DNA of 64,000 nt from Branchiostoma floridae. Lineage: Eukaryota; Chordata; Leptocardii; Amphioxiformes; Branchiostomatidae. The position numbers were made by a program, and so were the translations under genes. Below, piece after piece: positions 51,726 to 63,537 of the stretch. Under the pieces are notes generated by a model that saw only the letters and a list, made by a program, of their open reading frames with translations, did no database searches and was not told the origin of the DNA. Within the stretch, counting starts at the first letter, position 1. Each line of letters opens with the position of its first letter. The stretch is taken from the NCBI RefSeq assembly GCF_000003815.2, contig NW_023365706.1, positions 103,127 through 167,126 of the forward strand. Reading direction: 5' to 3'.

Positions 51726-54700
51726 CTACCAGTTGACCTTGAGACAGATGTTTCCCGAGATGCTGTCAATGACGTTCGCGTCAGAAGAAGGCACGACGGT
51801 AACGGAAGATTCATCTGTCAGGAAAGCTGTCACCTGATTGGTCTGTTTGTGCCTGATGTAGAGGAGGCTGTGGTCCTTCTCATCCACCTCACACTCCAGC
51901 TCCGCGGAGCTCAGCACGGTGTACCCTGCCTCGTAATGCATCCTGGGTACAAAAATCTCAGTGGGGGCCTTGATGGAGGGGTCGGAGGTGAAGGTCAGTT
52001 GGAAACGGCTGGTGTCGATGTCGAAGGTCATCTCCGTGGGAACCCCCGCCACTGCACGTGCGTATGTTCGGGCAAATAGGCTGACACGTTCAGGGATAGC
52101 GCGTCCAGTGGGGTCCCAAAATACCTGAGGGCCGGGGGTAGCGTCCCAGTAGGTCCATGACTGTAAGGAACTGTCCGCTTTCTTTAAGACGAACCCGCAC
52201 TCTATTGTGTCCGGGTAAGTCGGATCGCTCGCGTTTGGCCAGCAAAGTCCAAACTCCGTGAGGAAGGATCCTCCACCGAGAGTCTTCAAGTCCTCCTGTA
52301 CAGCTGAGAACATCTTGGGTCCAAGTATCTCATCACAGAGGACTCTCTTATACTCAGGGTACTGCTGCTGTCCCAACTGGAACACCCAACAGTAGTAGTG
52401 GTAGGACAAGACGCTACGGTTTCTGTATGCCACCCCTCCTGGTACATGCTCGAATCCCGACCCCAGTACGCCATCTTCTGAGAAGATGTAGCCCCATGTG
52501 ACCGGCTCGTAGAAAATCAGCGTTTCGTCGTCCGCCACTCGGACGGCTCGGTTTATACGGTCGTACAGAGGAGCAAGGTTCTTCTTCCCAGCATGCCCCG
52601 GGAGGAACAGTTCCGGGTCCTTCGTCCAATCGCCGACCCAGGGCTCGTTTATCAGCTCGTAACCCATCACTGACGTTTGATTTGAAAACTCGGCCGCTAC
52701 AAATTTCCAGAAGCCCGCCATCTTGTCTGCGGCGCCCTTGTAGTTGTCGTAGAGACACTGGAAGTTGTGACTGCATCTCTGCGTGAAGTAGTTCTGGGAC
52801 CAGGATGTGATGTTCTTCAGCGGCCAGGGGTAGGGGTGGTCCGGCGGCGGGAAGCTCGCGACGAGCCACGGAGGAACGCCGTCGTAAAAAGAGTCCAGCC
52901 CATCCTGATGCATGTCCAGTATGGTGTAGATGCCGCGCCTTCCCAGCTCGGACGTGATGTTCTGAATGACGTTCATGTACGTCTGGTTGTACCTAAATGT
53001 ATGAGAAAAGGGAACGAATAGATAAAGGAATAACTTGAAAGTTCATCTGTGTTGGTAGAAGTCATTCTTGAAATAGTTGAACTGTAATTTCCAACACCAA
53101 AATTGGACTCACCCAAATTTTTGACAGTGGGCGCCATAGACTTCCTGCAACCTACTGTACATGTATAATCCACTGCTTACTGAGTCACGAGTTCTATCTG
53201 CATAACGTGACGTCACGACAGCAGTGGATTGTTCATTCCTTGACAAAGACTAGTGCTGTTCAGTTGAAAATTTGGGTGGGTCCAATTTTGGTGTTGGAAA
53301 TTACAGTTCAACTATTTCAAGATAGATGAAGGAATGTTTGGCTTGAGTTTGAAAGTGCACATGAAATGGTACTAGTAAACTGTTCCTAGTAAGTTCATTA
53401 TCTGGAGCTTGTTTCAAGTTGTAAGATGATAGTAATGTTTGTTGTTGATGCTCATGTAAGTCTGGTTGCATCTAGATGATGAAATGAATGAATGAGAAAA
53501 TGAAAAGATGGATAAACCAATGAACAGTCCCATAGTTAGAACTTAAAGACTAATAAGTTTGAAAGTGTTCATGCAGAAGAAAAATGTTAATACCTCGCAT
53601 GTGGTGTGTGATACTGATCCAAAACAAAATAACAAACATGTTCTGTTCCAGCTCACAACATACCAAAACAAAAGAACAAACAAACAAACATGCCCCACCT
53701 CCCCTCCTGTGGTTCTGCGCTGGCCCATATCATAACAAAACAAACAAACAAACAAACAAACAAACAGTCCCCACCTGCCCTCCTGTGGTTCTGCCCCTGC
53801 CCACATCATAACAAACAAACAAACATGTCCTACCTCCTCTCCTGTGGTTCTGCCCCAGCCCACATCATAACAAACAAACAAACAAACACACAGTCCCCAC
53901 CTCCCCTCCTGTGGTTCTGCCCCAGCCCTCATAACAAAACAAACAAACAAACAAACAAACAAACAGTCCCCACCTCCCCTCCTGTGGTTCTGCTCCTGCT
54001 CACATCATAACAAACAAACAAAAAAACAAACAAACAAACCTGCCCTCATGTGGTTCTGCCCCAGCCCACATCATCCCCAGTCGGAGGGCGTTGAACCCCC
54101 AACTCTGCAGCTCGTCCAGTCGGGACTGGTTCAGCATCTGGGCCGGATACCTGCACAGGTAAAACAGTAAAAAAAGTCGGATATAGGAAAATTCTTGTAC
54201 ACAACCAAAATTAAACTTACGTTTCGGTGGCTACCAGACATCTTCCTCAGAACTTCTGACTGGAGTTCTGCTTCTCGCCACTATATATAGCCGATGTAGG
54301 TGGTGCTGCTTTTGCGCCGCGAACATTATCCCAAACATGTCCAAGCAGAACTCCAGTCAGAAGCTCTGATAGACACCGAAACCTAAGCATTTTGGTTGTG
54401 TACAAGAATTTTCCTATATTCTATATTCTACCAACCTGGGAGTAAAAAAAGGTACCAGGGACCAAATATCCGAATGAAAAGCCCATCTGTGTTGGTAGAA
54501 TCCATAGTTGTAAAAGTTTAAACTTTGTTCCAACACAAAAGAAGAACTCACCATAAATTTTTTGCCAACGTGCTCGACCGAAAATTTATGGTGAGTTCTT
54601 CTTCTTTTGTGTTGAAACAAAGTTTAAACTTTTACATCTACAATTACCCTCGATCTCTTGGTTCTAACCTTATACTCTACCAGTTCTGCCACACTGACCC

Positions 54701-55439
54701 AATACCTGCACAAGGAAGGATAAAAAAAAAACACTGAAATGCCACATAGCAGCCCCTTTTCAAGTACAGAACCAGAGAGTTCTCTGTGATGATATACTTG
54801 GGCCAAAACTGCCTCATGCGTTGCACGATGTGGGAGCTACTAAGTCTAAGTCTAAGTCTAAGTCTAAGTAAGCCCCTGTTTGTATTGCATGTTATGCAGT
54901 TATGGAGCAAATTCAACAGAATAGAAGGAAGAAATGAACAAATGGATTGATGTAAGGAATGAATAAATAAATCCTCATCAACTTTCCATGTAGCACCCCA
55001 AACCTATGTACAATCCATGGAATAGATTATGACAATAGCAATTTCATTTTAAAAAATTGCACACTTTCCGTTCCACTGCAGTACCTACATTGTAGTGAAG
55101 TGGCTAGGAGGCCCCAAAAGCCAATAATGTTAACAAAAATCAATAAAATCTATTTCATGCTGTTTCCAAAGAAATGGACACAGACACAAATTAATTGCGC
55201 TGAAAACATAGCCTCCCCCGAGGCTTACATGTAAGTAAAAAAATCGAAATTCAATGAACTGCTAGTTACCATGGAAACCCTTTCTCGATGGCGTTTATGC
55301 CGTGAAAGATGCGCACGCGGCCGGAGGCGTCCAGGAACCAGTGATTGTCTGGGTGGACGTGGATACGGGACGGCGCGGCGGTACACAGACACGCGGCCAC
55401 GGCACAGCTCAGGGCCAGGAGGAATCCGATTCCAGCCAT
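51726..55439 (-). CDS. Endoglycoceramidase-like GH5 glycosidase, secreted
   Basis: Three coding exons: 55439-55270, 54150-54040, 52992-51726; 1548 nt, 515 aa, phases 2 and 2 joining cleanly (FPW|YPAQML, EPHEGR|YNQTY). Residues 1 to about 21 form a signal peptide (MAGIGFLLALSCAVAACLC). The N-terminal part has NHWFLDASGRVRIFHGIN and a GFNALRLGMMWAGAEP strand. In the large last exon, YTILDMHQD is followed by ELINEPW (predicted acid/base Glu210) and FLTEFG (predicted nucleophile Glu340), the standard GH5 pair; WTYWD follows. The C-terminal about 110 residues suit the beta-sandwich of endoglycoceramidases. Known family role: cleaving the oligosaccharide from ceramide in glycosphingolipids; here probably secreted or lysosomal. 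Several NxS/T sites are present. Other GH5 subfamilies cannot be excluded by eye, but the DMHQD/YNQTY context favours endoglycoceramidase. Confidence 0.87.
53069..53322. mobile_element. Foldback MITE in glycosidase intron 2
   Basis: Arms of about 54 bases: 'ttgaaatagttgaactgtaa' and onward pairs with its complement ending 'ttacagttcaactatttcaa'. They include 'ccaacaccaaaattgg', a motif also seen in degenerate form near 6850 and 18790 in genes A and B. Confidence 0.82.
53685..54037 (-). repeat. Five intronic copies of exon 2 end plus donor (glycosidase)
   Basis: Five units of about 60-75 bases each contain, on the gene strand, 'gggcagaaccacaggagggg' followed by a donor-like AG^GTGGGG, AG^GTAGGA or similar, then (TTTG)n and 'ttatgatgtgggc'. 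They copy the last ~30 coding bases of exon 2 (MMWAGAEPHEGR) and are placed immediately after it. Confidence 0.85.
54181..54421. mobile_element. Foldback MITE in glycosidase intron 1
   Basis: 'ataggaaaattcttgtacac' on the left pairs with 'gtgtacaagaattttcctat' on the right. Arms of about 85-95 bases with mismatches, including 'agaacttctgactggagttc' and its counterpart. Confidence 0.82.
54507..54641. mobile_element. Second foldback MITE in glycosidase intron 1
   Basis: 'gtaaaagtttaaactttgtt' pairs with 'aacaaagtttaaacttttac'. Arms of about 52 bases around a short centre 'tgccaacgtgctcgacc'. It starts close to 'tgtgttggtagaa', a phrase shared with the foldback at 53069-53322. Confidence 0.82.
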
Positions 55440-55452
55440 GTTTCCTCACCTA

Positions 55453-59080: not shown

Positions 59081-60880
59081 ATGGGGTCTCGTCTGGCATT
59101 GCTGGCATACAAGGAAAACAATACCCATGAGAAGGTAAAGGTGCCCGATAACATCGATGCCTGCCGTATTGATACAGACGAAGGGAGAAAAGAGGAAACT
59201 GCTGGCAAAGTCAACAGCGACGAGCCAGAAGAAACGGATCCTCTGGAAATCAACGGTGATGAAGTAAGGGGTGCTGAAAACCCTTCTGATGGGGATGAAA
59301 GTTTGAAGGTTCCAGAAGCAGGTGGAGGTGATGAAGATGGGGATAACAATAATGCAGAGTCTCAACCCTCCAGCCAGACACAGCATCCTCCAGTGGAATT
59401 GAGTGATGCAGAAGAAGAGGAGGAAGGAGGCGAGGAGGAGGAGGAAGACAACAACGATGCTGCTGACAATGATGAACCTGATGCAAAAGAAGAACATGAT
59501 TCCAAAGCAACATCACCTACATGTACTACAAGAACCGCGAATACAGGCCAAAGAGAGCCACAAGTCAACACCGAAAGTCTGACGTCAGACACAGAACCCA
59601 CGTGCCGTCCAGCGGCAGACATGTTGGAGGAAGCTACGCCATTGCCACCAGAAGCTTGTCCGGGAAATGGTCCTACTCCTGTTACAGTCCAGGTGGAGAA
59701 CGCGTTTGCTGTGCAGGTTGGAAACGGCAACGTTTTGATTTCGGCCAAAACAGAGGGAAGCGAAAACGCCACACTTACATCAGGTGCCGATACATGGCAG
59801 TCACACAACGGGGCTGAAATAGTGGTCGTGTACATCAAGAACTGTGACGTCGTGCAAGTTGGAAACCACAACAAAGTGATACCACAGGAAAACGGTTAGC
59901 TCGAATTTACAGTTCTTAAACGCATCAACGCAATAAGGCTTTGCAATGTACTTTTTTAATCATATTTTTAACTTAAAGAAAAGATGCACTAGACCACCAG
60001 TGCGTGTTTTATGGATGGACAAACGTGTGTTTCTTGAATACATCGCAAAAAAGTATCCAATGCAAAATTGACCTGTTCTGGTACTTTTTTTCCAGCCTAT
60101 GTGAAGGTCTGCTGTGAACTTGGCATTGATCCGGAGAGGGCAGACGACATACTTGCGAGGCTACGTCATGACGACGTCAGGCGTCAGTTCGCGAAGAAAA
60201 TGGCGGACAGCTTCAACGTGACGTGTAGGATAAGAGCTGCTACCAGAGGGTGCATCTTGCTGGAGCTGGAGGTCCCTACAGAAGCAGACCGGCTGCAGCT
60301 CCTCCGCATGGCCAGAGACGGGACCTTCCAGCAGGTTCTCCTGGAGACCTTCCTGCCGGAGTTTGCGGCCGAGGGAAGGGCGGTGAACATGAACCTGGCC
60401 ATCGGCGTGAGGAACCCTTCACAGGCTGTGGTGGAGGAACTGCAGGGGGCTACAGCTTCAAGTGGTGAGTGAAATTGGTTCCAGACAATGTTGTTCGACA
60501 TAGATAATAGATAACGTATCTATAAACAACATACATTTGTTCTATGTAGCATTAATCTTTACATAATTACTGTTCTATAATTTCATTTTAGCATGCAGTT
60601 GTTGAATACATTTAAATGGTAAATTTTGTTTCCGCTATTCTCATCGATAAAGACAAAGAGGCTGTAAAAGTGATAGAGATCCCAGACCCCGCACTTACAG
60701 ACGGAAGTTCGACACCAGGACAACCAAAATCTTCCCCGGATCAAACCGAGGGACAAAACCAGGCAGAAAACCACGTGGGAGTACTTGAAGGTCCTCCCGA
60801 CGTTGGTAAGTGTTACGGCTAATTCCATCATTTAGATCTTTTGTTTCAAACAATTTCCAGTTTATAGATGCAATACTACG

Positions 60881-60938
<58 letters not shown>

Positions 60939-63537
60939 AGAGAGATACATATAAATATCCATATACATAAACATATTCACATACATATCACTTTGTACCA
61001 ACCCAGACCAGTGGGGCATTTCGGACGAAGAAAGCCCAAGTGTTGAGAGGAGCACGTCTGCTTCCGAGACAGGCGACATATCTCAGCTGACGTCTCTCCT
61101 GCGACTGTTGTCAGAGCCTGGCGAAGATCAACATGACCAAAACCCAGCGACGGAGGACCAAAGCCCAGCGACAGATGACCAAAGCCCAGCGGCAGATGAC
61201 CAAAGCCCAGCGGCAGATGGACAACGCCCTGCACCAGATGACCAAAGCCTTGATGAAGATGACCTCCTTCCAGTGGACGAACGTCTTGAGACCAACGACC
61301 AACGTATTGAGGTCCTTCACCAGGATGACCCAGACCTGGGAACAGATGACCAAGGCCCCGCGTCAGGTGACCAACACCTTGAGACAGATGACCAATCCTA
61401 CGACCATTCAGTTGAATATGAATCTCTGACACAAGGTATGTCTGCCGAACACTCTGTACTTGGTCTCTTTATGTTCTATTTCCTGTAAATGGGTAAACCA
61501 ATGTCAAAGGCATAGCTAAAAAAGAAATAAATTGAAGCGATGGTTTAATATTAGATACCTTTGGTCTTAGGTTCATAATTCCTTTCGAGATATCTTCTAA
61601 GAGTTTATATTTTTCATACATGAAGAAGAGCCAAACTCTGAGGCATTTAGTTCATCGGCTCATCCTGAAGGAACATCTAGCGTCACAAGTTACCAAGTCT
61701 CGGAGAGAAGTGGAAGTGAGAAGACAGGTGAGTTTCAGTAATGTGCGTTTTCGATATCATTAACACATGACATTTCATGTGTAGAGTTATTGTAATCAGA
61801 AGATGACAGAGTTCTTTATGCACAACAATGTGTTTGTATCCAGCCGACGGGGCTTTTTCCGTCATTTTGGCCCATAAGACACTTTTGCTGGCCATTTCTC
61901 GTCAGTTAAGCGATCCAGTACAAAACGAAATGGCCTGCAAAAGTGTATTATGAGCCAAGAAAAGACGGGGAAAATGCCCCAGAGAACCTGCTATGGAGGG
62001 TACATTTATGATACATTTAGACCTCACGAACAGTCATCGTGACAATAAACATCAACGCAATGTAGACACAAAAAAGAAAACAAAAATTATTAGAAACTGT
62101 CTGGCTGAGAACAGTGACAAGTCACTTTGTTCACCTTTTTCTTATCTTTCGTATAGGCGATGACGAAATGACGAAAGTACTGCGAAGACTGGCTGTCGCT
62201 CTAGACAGGCGTGAGTGGGAACAGGTTTCGCAAGCTCTGCGTGTAAAACAGCCCGATAAAGACCTCTCCGCTGACGACACACACCTGCGGGTGAGGATAC
62301 TCCGGGAGTGGCGGGAAGGCCCGTCCTACCGGGAGCAGTTCCACGGGCTGCTGCTGGCGCTGGAGGCGTGCGGCCGGGATGACTTCGCGGTGGAGCTCCT
62401 ACAATCAGGTAACGCTCACATCATCTCCTAGTCGTCTGGCTCAGTTTTTTTTCTTCTAGTTTGCTTTTGGACAGACGGGGACAATGTGGCACTGCACTCA
62501 AGTTTTTGTAACTTATATGAACAGTGCCACATACACGTTACAGACAGAAGGTAAAGGTAGTCCTTTACCTCCCCGACCGAAGTCAGGTACCCATTTTTAC
62601 ACCTGGGTGAAGAGAGGAAGGTCGTGTCAAGTGCCTTTCCCAAGGGCACAACGTCGGGGCGGGGCACGGTGGGGATCGAACTCAGAACCTCTAGGCTCCG
62701 AGCCGAACGCTCTACCAGTTACGCCACGACCGACGCCGAAGCGTGTTGTTTGTCTAGTTATGAAGTGCTTATAACCTACTGTAGTATAACAATAGTGAAC
62801 TCCATTCAACATTGACGAGCTGCTTTATAACGGAATCTTACAGAACATGAATCACAGGTGACAATAATCCGTTGAAGCAAGGTGTAAATATAGCAAGGAA
62901 AAAAATACCCGTATATTGCAAGCTCATTTGAATTAGAATTATAACAATTTCTCTCCACAGAACCACACGCCACTCACACAGCCCCATATGTTCCCGCGGC
63001 TAGTTCCTTTGAAGATGATTATTCGGAGGTAAGTTTTACGTCTTTTATGACATGAGGTATCGTACCTTACTAATACAAATGGCCAGCCGAAGCCTTACTA
63101 GAGGCACTGAAGGATGTCTTTACAACCGAGATAGAGAGAGCGTTCTATTTTGGGTCTTTGTGCTCTTTGCCTGTCAGCATGTAGAAGGCATTTCCTGTAC
63201 TGACTCATAAAGTCATTGCATCATTTGTATTAAAGCACTGTCCTTTGAACATCCTGGAGAGAGATGTCTACAGTCGCCAAGTGTCAGCACTTGATGCCGA
63301 CAATTGATTGGTTGATTTACTGATTGATTGACAGATGTCTACCCAGCTGAAGAAGGCCGTCCCGGTGTTTAATCAGCCCAGGAAGCCGAGGAAGCCCCCT
63401 GTGGACCCCCGGACCCCCCTCCGCAGGTTGCCGTTCAGACTGGTGAAGGAGATCGCCATGGAGCTGGACCCGCCCGGACAGCTGGTGAACTGGAAGGACC
63501 TGGCCGCATGTACTAGTTTTAGCATGCAGGAGATAAG
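59081..63537 (+). CDS. RHIM / TRADD-N-like / Death-domain adaptor, 3' end off the window
   Basis: Eight exons: 59081-59894, 60096-60464, 60653-60805, 61007-61435, 61626-61727, 62157-62408, 62961-63028, 63335-63537; 2390 nt so far, 796 codons plus two bases, introns phase 1 until exon 7. Residues 1-200 are acidic and disordered. Two RHIM-like cores follow: AVQVGNGNVLI (VQVG 211-214) and VVQVGNHNKVI (VQVG 258-261). Exon 2 resembles the TRADD N-terminal domain (GCILLELEVPTEADRLQLL, then a FQQVLLETFLPEF helix). Exon 4 carries DDQSPA repeats. Exon 6 looks like a Death domain (LRRLAVALDRREWEQVSQAL, LLLALEACGRDDFAVELL). Exon 8 starts a second one (LPFRLVKEIAMELDPP, NWKDLAACTSFSMQEIR). The start has a good Kozak context. 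The exon 1 donor is weak; reading through gives a 272-aa RHIM-only form. Likely role, inferred: cytosolic adaptor for necroptosis/NF-kB-type signalling through amyloid-like RHIM assembly. Confidence 0.75.
60893..60932. repeat. (GA)n microsatellite
   Basis: About 40 bases of 'gagaga' in the intron between exons 3 and 4 of the RHIM gene. Confidence 0.92.
61849..61985. mobile_element. Foldback MITE in the RHIM gene
   Basis: 'cccataagacacttttgctg' pairs imperfectly with 'cctgcaaaagtgtattatga', with 'ggccatttc' and 'gaaatggcc' in the stem and 'gacggggctttttccgtc' against 'gacggggaaaatgcccc' outside. It lies in the intron before the Death-domain exon 6. Confidence 0.7.
62548..62735 (-). mobile_element. 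tRNA-derived SINE in the RHIM gene
   Basis: On the minus strand the head 'ggcgtaactggtagagcgtt' (A-box) and 'tgagttcgatccccacc' (B-box) are clearly tRNA-like, followed by 'tgcccttgggaaaggcactt' as in the other SINEs. It lies between exons 6 and 7, antisense to the gene. The missing acceptor stem and the SINE tail argue against a functional tRNA. Confidence 0.8.

Follow-up and report, generated by a model that had tools for sequence, protein, structure and literature searches.

Can a single kinase-free protein chain couple the helical Myddosome directly to RHIM amyloid? Vertebrates use separate proteins to bring Death-domain assembly and RHIM amyloid together, and the question is raised by a locus of the lancelet Branchiostoma floridae. 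It lies in a stretch of 64,000 nucleotides (here called the window; contig NW_023365706.1, positions 103,127 to 167,126), which sits on contig C148 of the genome that was searched (513,431,437 bases in 431 contigs). An earlier note, made from the letters alone, had proposed that the span 59081-63537 contains eight phase-compatible exons of one gene that joins RHIM motifs, a TRADD-N-like domain and Death domains. We hold with moderate confidence that the locus is indeed one gene, encoding a kinase-less cytosolic death-fold/amyloid adaptor that would convert Death assemblies of the Myddosome type to RHIM amyloid. The domains are known ones, in an arrangement for which no description was found; titles and abstract starts of the open-licence literature searched, supplementary files aside, describe no RHIM-TRADD-N protein.

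The gene model, its domain content, the relationship to IRAK proteins and the family with a shared front end were all obtained by computation. The eight exons were recovered with consistent phases, and the gene proved to be longer, with two more exons. The contig sequence past the window end was read to complete the model, and exons 9 and 10 are given in window numbering. The predicted gene consists of 10 phase-compatible exons encoding 854 amino acids, and closes with TGA at window-equivalent 65927. The start codon, ATG 59081, is the first ATG downstream of an upstream in-frame stop. All nine introns have GT-AG borders, and the junction phases, in order from exon 1, are 1,1,1,1,1,1,0,2,1 (phase 1 at seven of nine). 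No exon carries an internal stop, so that the frame stays open until the TGA of exon 10, and exons 9 and 10 complete both Death domain 2 and the reading frame. The features are as follows.

59081..59894, plus strand: exon 1, two RHIM motifs behind an acidic N-terminus of low complexity, ending in phase 1 (model, two Pfam RHIM stretches, paralogous RHIM exons)
59711..59731, plus strand: RHIM-A core VQVGNGN, motif in exon 1 aligned to relatives
59852..59872, plus strand: RHIM-B core VQVGNHN, the highest-scoring Pfam RHIM stretch
60096..60464, plus strand: exon 2, TRADD-N-like domain, phase 1-1 (model, relatives, profile and shuffle controls)
60653..60805, plus strand: exon 3, linker; the C135 and C11 relatives have an exon at the same place and phase, and the similarity of exon 3 was judged by eye
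61007..61435, plus strand: exon 4, acidic linker with a DDQSPA-like repeat (model)
61626..61727, plus strand: exon 5, linker (model)
62157..62408, plus strand: exon 6, Death domain 1, phase 1-1 (Pfam Death, under the cut-off alone; shuffle control)
62961..63028, plus strand: exon 7, linker (model)
63335..63537, plus strand: exon 8, N-terminal half of the IRAK4-type Death domain 2 (model, PDB and genome relatives)
64643-64791, outside the window, plus strand: exon 9, second half of Death domain 2 (model, contig beyond the window)
65902-65927, outside the window, plus strand: exon 10, TGA stop (model, contig beyond the window)

The Pfam scan of the whole model placed Death and RHIM above their cut-offs, together with one irrelevant weak match. 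At E<=1, it found no kinase domain, hence neither an IRAK Ser/Thr kinase nor a RIPK N-terminal kinase, and no TIR domain; an NLR core was also not found in the Pfam scan of this gene. No kinase exon is present among the listed downstream open reading frames (ORFs), and an NCBIfam scan of four proteins gave nothing useful. With both families above the Pfam cut-off and no kinase in the scan, the predicted protein conforms to the single kinase-free adaptor with RHIM and Death domains that had been proposed.

The two RHIMs were assessed in several ways. On the complete model, Pfam RHIM reaches 22.1 bits against a cut-off of 20 (E 1e-4, two stretches); exon 1 alone stays below the cut-off (17.5 bits, E 0.0029). 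Two matches to the pattern [IV]Q[ILV]GxxN lie in the 272-residue exon 1 product, and among 100,000 residue shuffles of exon 1 at least one match was seen in 104 and two matches in none. In an alignment of four family members, the motifs hold the same position despite an otherwise diverged exon 1. The genome scan with Pfam RHIM, which was not exhaustive in that it missed the C235 and C19 RHIMs described below and any RIPK1 RHIM, gave seven matches at E<=10. Five fall in three loci of the RHIM-TRADD-N family, and the remaining two in frames of 41 and 36 amino acids; the two above the cut-off are C135 and the window gene (20.2 bits). A PDB search with the RHIM region returned no RHIM chain, only chance-level polymerase matches (best E 0.29). 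RHIM in lancelets is already known, as the excerpted text of PMC12119088 reports lancelet RIPK1 homologues that carry it. The origin of RHIM has been placed in vertebrates on the basis of SMART, as stated in the excerpt of PMC9573974, and the window gene speaks against this placement.

The main support for placing exons 1 and 2 in the same gene is their repeated association. A genome search with exon 2 gave ten places at E<=1, namely the window, C135 (72%), C11 (52%), C235 (54%), four places on C19 (42-45%), and weak places on C13 (0.175) and C215 (0.244), which overlap Pfam TRADD-like_N matches (1.0e-7 and 0.127, respectively). The search from a C19 member gave 12 places, 11 of them in the same eight loci and one a weak C19 fragment. 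A RHIM-like exon stands ahead of the TRADD-N exon, on the same strand, at all eight loci found, and because of this we assign both exons to the same gene. The earlier note had allowed that exon 1 might belong to a gene other than that of exons 2-8; the repeated link argues against such a split on the genomic side, to which this evidence pertains. RHIMs come in pairs in the window gene, C135, C11 and C235, and singly in the four near-identical RHIM/TRADD-N copies on C19, which lie at 0.35, 0.45, 0.51 and 0.79 Mb. By Pfam, the RHIM exons of C135 (9.7e-6) and C11 (3.1e-4) are above the cut-off and that of C235 (0.057) is not; the first RHIM motif of C235 has no glutamine. In the models of the window gene, C135 and C11, exons 1, 2 and 3 are joined at phase 1.

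Downstream of this shared part, the relatives differ. The C135 model (1,249 amino acids) keeps phase 1 from RHIM to TRADD-N, across two linker exons and into an open RING/B-box/NHL frame (6.1e-11, 2.7e-6 and 1.7e-29, respectively) that has no ATG ahead of the RING. For the C11 relative five exons were modelled, and farther on the same strand lies a 990-amino-acid frame with a DUF294 nucleotidyltransferase (0.00018) and TPRs (4.9e-56); the front end is probably fused to this frame, with the intervening junctions outside the model. For C235, a CABIT-like C-terminus had been guessed by eye and was rejected, as Pfam gave no family there. By these predictions, the RHIM-TRADD-N front end meets different C-termini, namely Death-Death in the window, RING/B-box/NHL in C135, and probably nucleotidyltransferase/TPR in C11.

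The TRADD-N-like domain was called in the earlier note by eye. Pfam TRADD-like_N (PF20694) on exon 2 alone gives 12.7 bits against a cut-off of 23.7 (E=0.12), with three unrelated families at similar E-values, and at E<=10 it matched four of seven family exons (best 0.0022). As Pfam alone stays below the cut-off, support for the call comes from relatives and shuffle controls. Comparing four family exons with six TRADD-like_N matches of the same genome, hhalign gave a P-value of 6.6e-5 and a probability of 64. A profile built from 40 TRADD-like_N matches of this genome, some below the Pfam cut-off themselves, scored C11 at 19.3, C135 at 17.2, the window exon at 16.6 and C235 at 13.1 bits. None of 12,000 shuffles exceeded 10.6 bits, so that four of the six family members tested exceed all shuffles; the top of the window exon's own 2,000 shuffles was 8.4 bits. 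The same four exons rank first among 1,845 ORFs from 11 stretches, with the next ORF at 7.9 bits. Vertebrate TRADD_N (PF09034) had two genome matches at E<=10, none above the cut-off and neither at this locus, and was not among the Pfam matches of exon 2 at E<=10; membership in that family was therefore rejected. Exon 2 very probably encodes a divergent TRADD-N-type domain, and its resemblance, as judged from profiles, is to the divergent invertebrate TRADD-like_N group and not to vertebrate TRADD_N. The earlier assignment thus stands in this divergent form, as seen with the relatives' profile.

Two further observations concern this exon and its kind. The last ~170 bases of exon 2 (60096-60464) are 95-100% identical to C135 (L048 7881-8246, minus strand), and the first 160 only about 55-62%. 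A blastn comparison of the two loci found nothing further at E<=1e-3 outside the TRADD-N exon match, and the uneven identity suggests that gene conversion or copying of the exon took place recently. Genome-wide, there are at least 96 TRADD-like_N matches at E<=1, dense in clusters at C17:18.30-18.90 Mb and C215:0.48-0.72 Mb, in agreement with the lancelet expansions described in the excerpt of PMC8195603.

Pfam Death matches the model in two stretches (3.2e-16, above the cut-off). Death domain 2 alone gives 1.4e-13; Death domain 1 alone (exon 6) gives 19.2 bits against a cut-off of 22.6 (E 0.0014), and none of its ten shuffles gave a Death match. The profile searches that had been suggested as a check on the Death and TRADD-N calls were thus significant for Death on the model, and below the cut-off for exon 6 alone and for TRADD-N. 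Among PDB sequences, Death domain 2 has IRAK3 (3.7e-7) and IRAK4 (4.3e-7) on top, with IRAK2, MALT1, p105, p75NTR and MyD88 weaker at 0.0014 to 0.04. Its nearest genomic relative is on C5, in two exons (51% and 53%), and the spliced domains share 44% identity over 103 aligned positions. Both have a phase-2 intron directly before the same FEMEY motif, the C5 donor being chosen by the analyst. The C5 Death domain is IRAK4-type (6.5e-15), and kinase exons lie downstream of it; for one of these, IRAK4 is the best match (2.1e-17 vs 1.1e-13 for the next kind). Because of the PDB ranking, the kinship with C5 and its kinase exons, and the common phase-2 intron, the C-terminal Death domain looks derived from IRAK. 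By these relationships it is IRAK4-type and not TNF-receptor-type, which points to MyD88/IRAK assemblies. The coupling to Death-domain receptors envisaged in the earlier note was consequently rejected as the first choice.

How could such an adaptor work? Its IRAK4-type C-terminal Death domain would join a helical MyD88/IRAK-type assembly, and Death domain 1 would lengthen this assembly or dock another Death partner. Copies clustered in this way would bring their N-terminal RHIM pairs together and nucleate RHIM amyloid, which would recruit other RHIM proteins, for example the lancelet RIPK1 homologues or relatives from its own family. The sheet surface of the TRADD-N-like domain would act as an adaptor and choose or hold a partner beside the RHIM pair. 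Transcription as a single mRNA, amyloid formation by the RHIMs, and all partners and outputs are what we infer from the model. Each step is open to test by short peptides and reporter assays in lancelet.

Several observations weigh against this account. A stop directly past the exon 1 donor makes an intronless 272-amino-acid product possible, and an ATG inside exon 6 and another opening exon 8 might let the Death half start separately; exons 4, 5 and 7 are without known relatives. When the window RHIMs are scored with a small profile from the relatives' RHIMs, they reach E-values of 0.1 (9.2 bits) and 0.31 (7.7 bits). A search of this genome with Death domain 1 recovered nothing beyond the query itself, and a PDB search with it gave no Death match. 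TRADD-like_N is under the Pfam cut-off in every scored member of the family (C135 17.4, C11 18.2, C235 11.8 bits, and the window exon at the 12.7 bits given above), and is absent at E<=1 from the Pfam scan of the whole model. With the 40-match profile, two C19 members score 6.6 and 5.9 bits, inside the shuffle range. No TRADD was returned when the TRADD-N profile was run against PDB, and a profile comparison of the family exons with four C17-type TRADD-N sequences found nothing useful.

The main rival to amyloid nucleation is a dampening role for the same single gene. The kinase-less IRAK-type Death domain would cap or divert Myddosomes, and the RHIMs would sequester RIPK1-type RHIM proteins, with inhibition as the result. 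The absence of a kinase exon from the model and from the listed downstream ORFs would suit such a role, as would the PDB ranking for Death domain 2, headed by IRAK3 (IRAK-M), barely ahead of IRAK4. IRAK-M is an inhibitor. However, two RHIMs and two Death domains would seem to resemble nucleators more than caps, and relatives join the same front end to apparent effector domains; we regard dampening as unlikely. Still less likely, in our estimate, are two adjoining genes, with roughly exons 1-3 as a RHIM(-TRADD-N) gene and exons 6-10 as a Death-Death adaptor. The ATG inside exon 6, the one that opens exon 8, and the linker exons without known relatives could be explained in this way, but the phase-1 junctions are unbroken from exon 1 to exon 7 with no stop in any exon. 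Moreover, the C135 front end runs in phase into RING/B-box/NHL, with no ATG ahead of the RING, and thus provides a parallel for C-terminal fusion. A third alternative, an ordinary Death-domain adaptor whose low-complexity first exon yields RHIM-like tetrads by chance, is highly improbable. The motif is short and its stretches are weak singly, in exon 1 alone as with the small profile, but two motifs never arose in the shuffles, the whole-model score is above the cut-off, and the motifs are kept in place in relatives with a diverged exon 1, of which C135 and C11 pass the cut-off in their own right.

With respect to known systems, the adaptor that we favour, one gene leading from Myddosome-type assemblies to RHIM amyloid, can be set beside TRIF/TICAM1, which is likewise kinase-free and carries a Toll-pathway signal to RHIM proteins (role of TRIF as excerpted from PMC9440496). 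TRIF, however, has a TIR domain and one RHIM, whereas the lancelet model has an IRAK-type Death domain, a second Death domain, a TRADD-N-like domain and two RHIMs, and shows no TIR in its Pfam scan. Lancelet TICAM is reported in the same excerpt to be without RHIM. The IRAK4/IRAK3 Death domain is closest in sequence to Death domain 2, with an intron phase in common with the lancelet IRAK4-like gene; in contrast to IRAKs, the model has no kinase, carries this domain C-terminally, and has RHIM and TRADD-N parts added. RIPK1, including its lancelet homologues (PMC12119088, in excerpt), also combines RHIM and Death on one chain, but the adaptor differs by the absence of a kinase, the paired N-terminal RHIMs, the IRAK-type Death domain and the TRADD-N-like domain. 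TRADD shares a TRADD-N-type domain and a C-terminal Death domain without kinase (architecture as excerpted from PMC8195603), whereas the lancelet domain is not of vertebrate TRADD_N type and is accompanied by RHIMs and an IRAK-type Death domain.

Two modular systems are also comparable. The DED-TRADD-N expansions of invertebrates, including lancelets, have a constant TRADD-N front and varied C-termini, among them TRIM and TTC28-like TPR (Kaur et al. 2021, PMC8195603, in excerpt). In the lancelet adaptor family a RHIM exon, and not a Death-fold domain, stands ahead of TRADD-N, and the word RHIM does not occur in the main text of that paper. Amyloid-motif NLR systems of fungi and bacteria (PP/RHIM-like; excerpts of PMC7889193 and PMC12881547) are similar in that their modular immune proteins carry a short amyloid motif terminally; the lancelet adaptor, unlike these, belongs to an animal Death-fold context.

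It is tempting to generalize, and we do so tentatively, with more doubt than belief. RHIM-RHIM-TRADD-N may define a new immune family of lancelets as its constant region, with an amyloid motif in place of the usual Death-fold domain ahead of TRADD-N and phase-1 exons leading to interchangeable C-termini. The window member would then convert Myddosomes to amyloid, as the counterpart of TRIF on the MyD88 branch, in an animal in which TICAM reportedly lacks RHIM. If so, helical Myddosome and RHIM amyloid would be directly coupled by one kinase-free chain, Toll-to-RHIM signalling could be built without a TIR-RHIM adaptor, and animals would have a modular amyloid-signalling system of a plan comparable to that of fungi and bacteria.

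Some minor observations concern the surroundings. Intron 8 holds, between about 63615 and window-equivalent 64190, a frame that by eye resembles a mariner-type transposase fragment and is bounded by inverted ends (GGGGCGTGCAATAAGTAATGGTCCTGACCCA and a near complement of it). Intron 9 (L009 7840-8300, outside the window) contains a tandem array of a ~28-base unit with GTAGTTCAGTGGTTAGACG, which by eye is tRNA B-box-like. The adaptor gene is flanked by two glycoside-hydrolase-like genes, at 52000-55445 on the minus strand and at L010 1722-3068 on the plus strand (family by eye), which resemble duplicates of one another.

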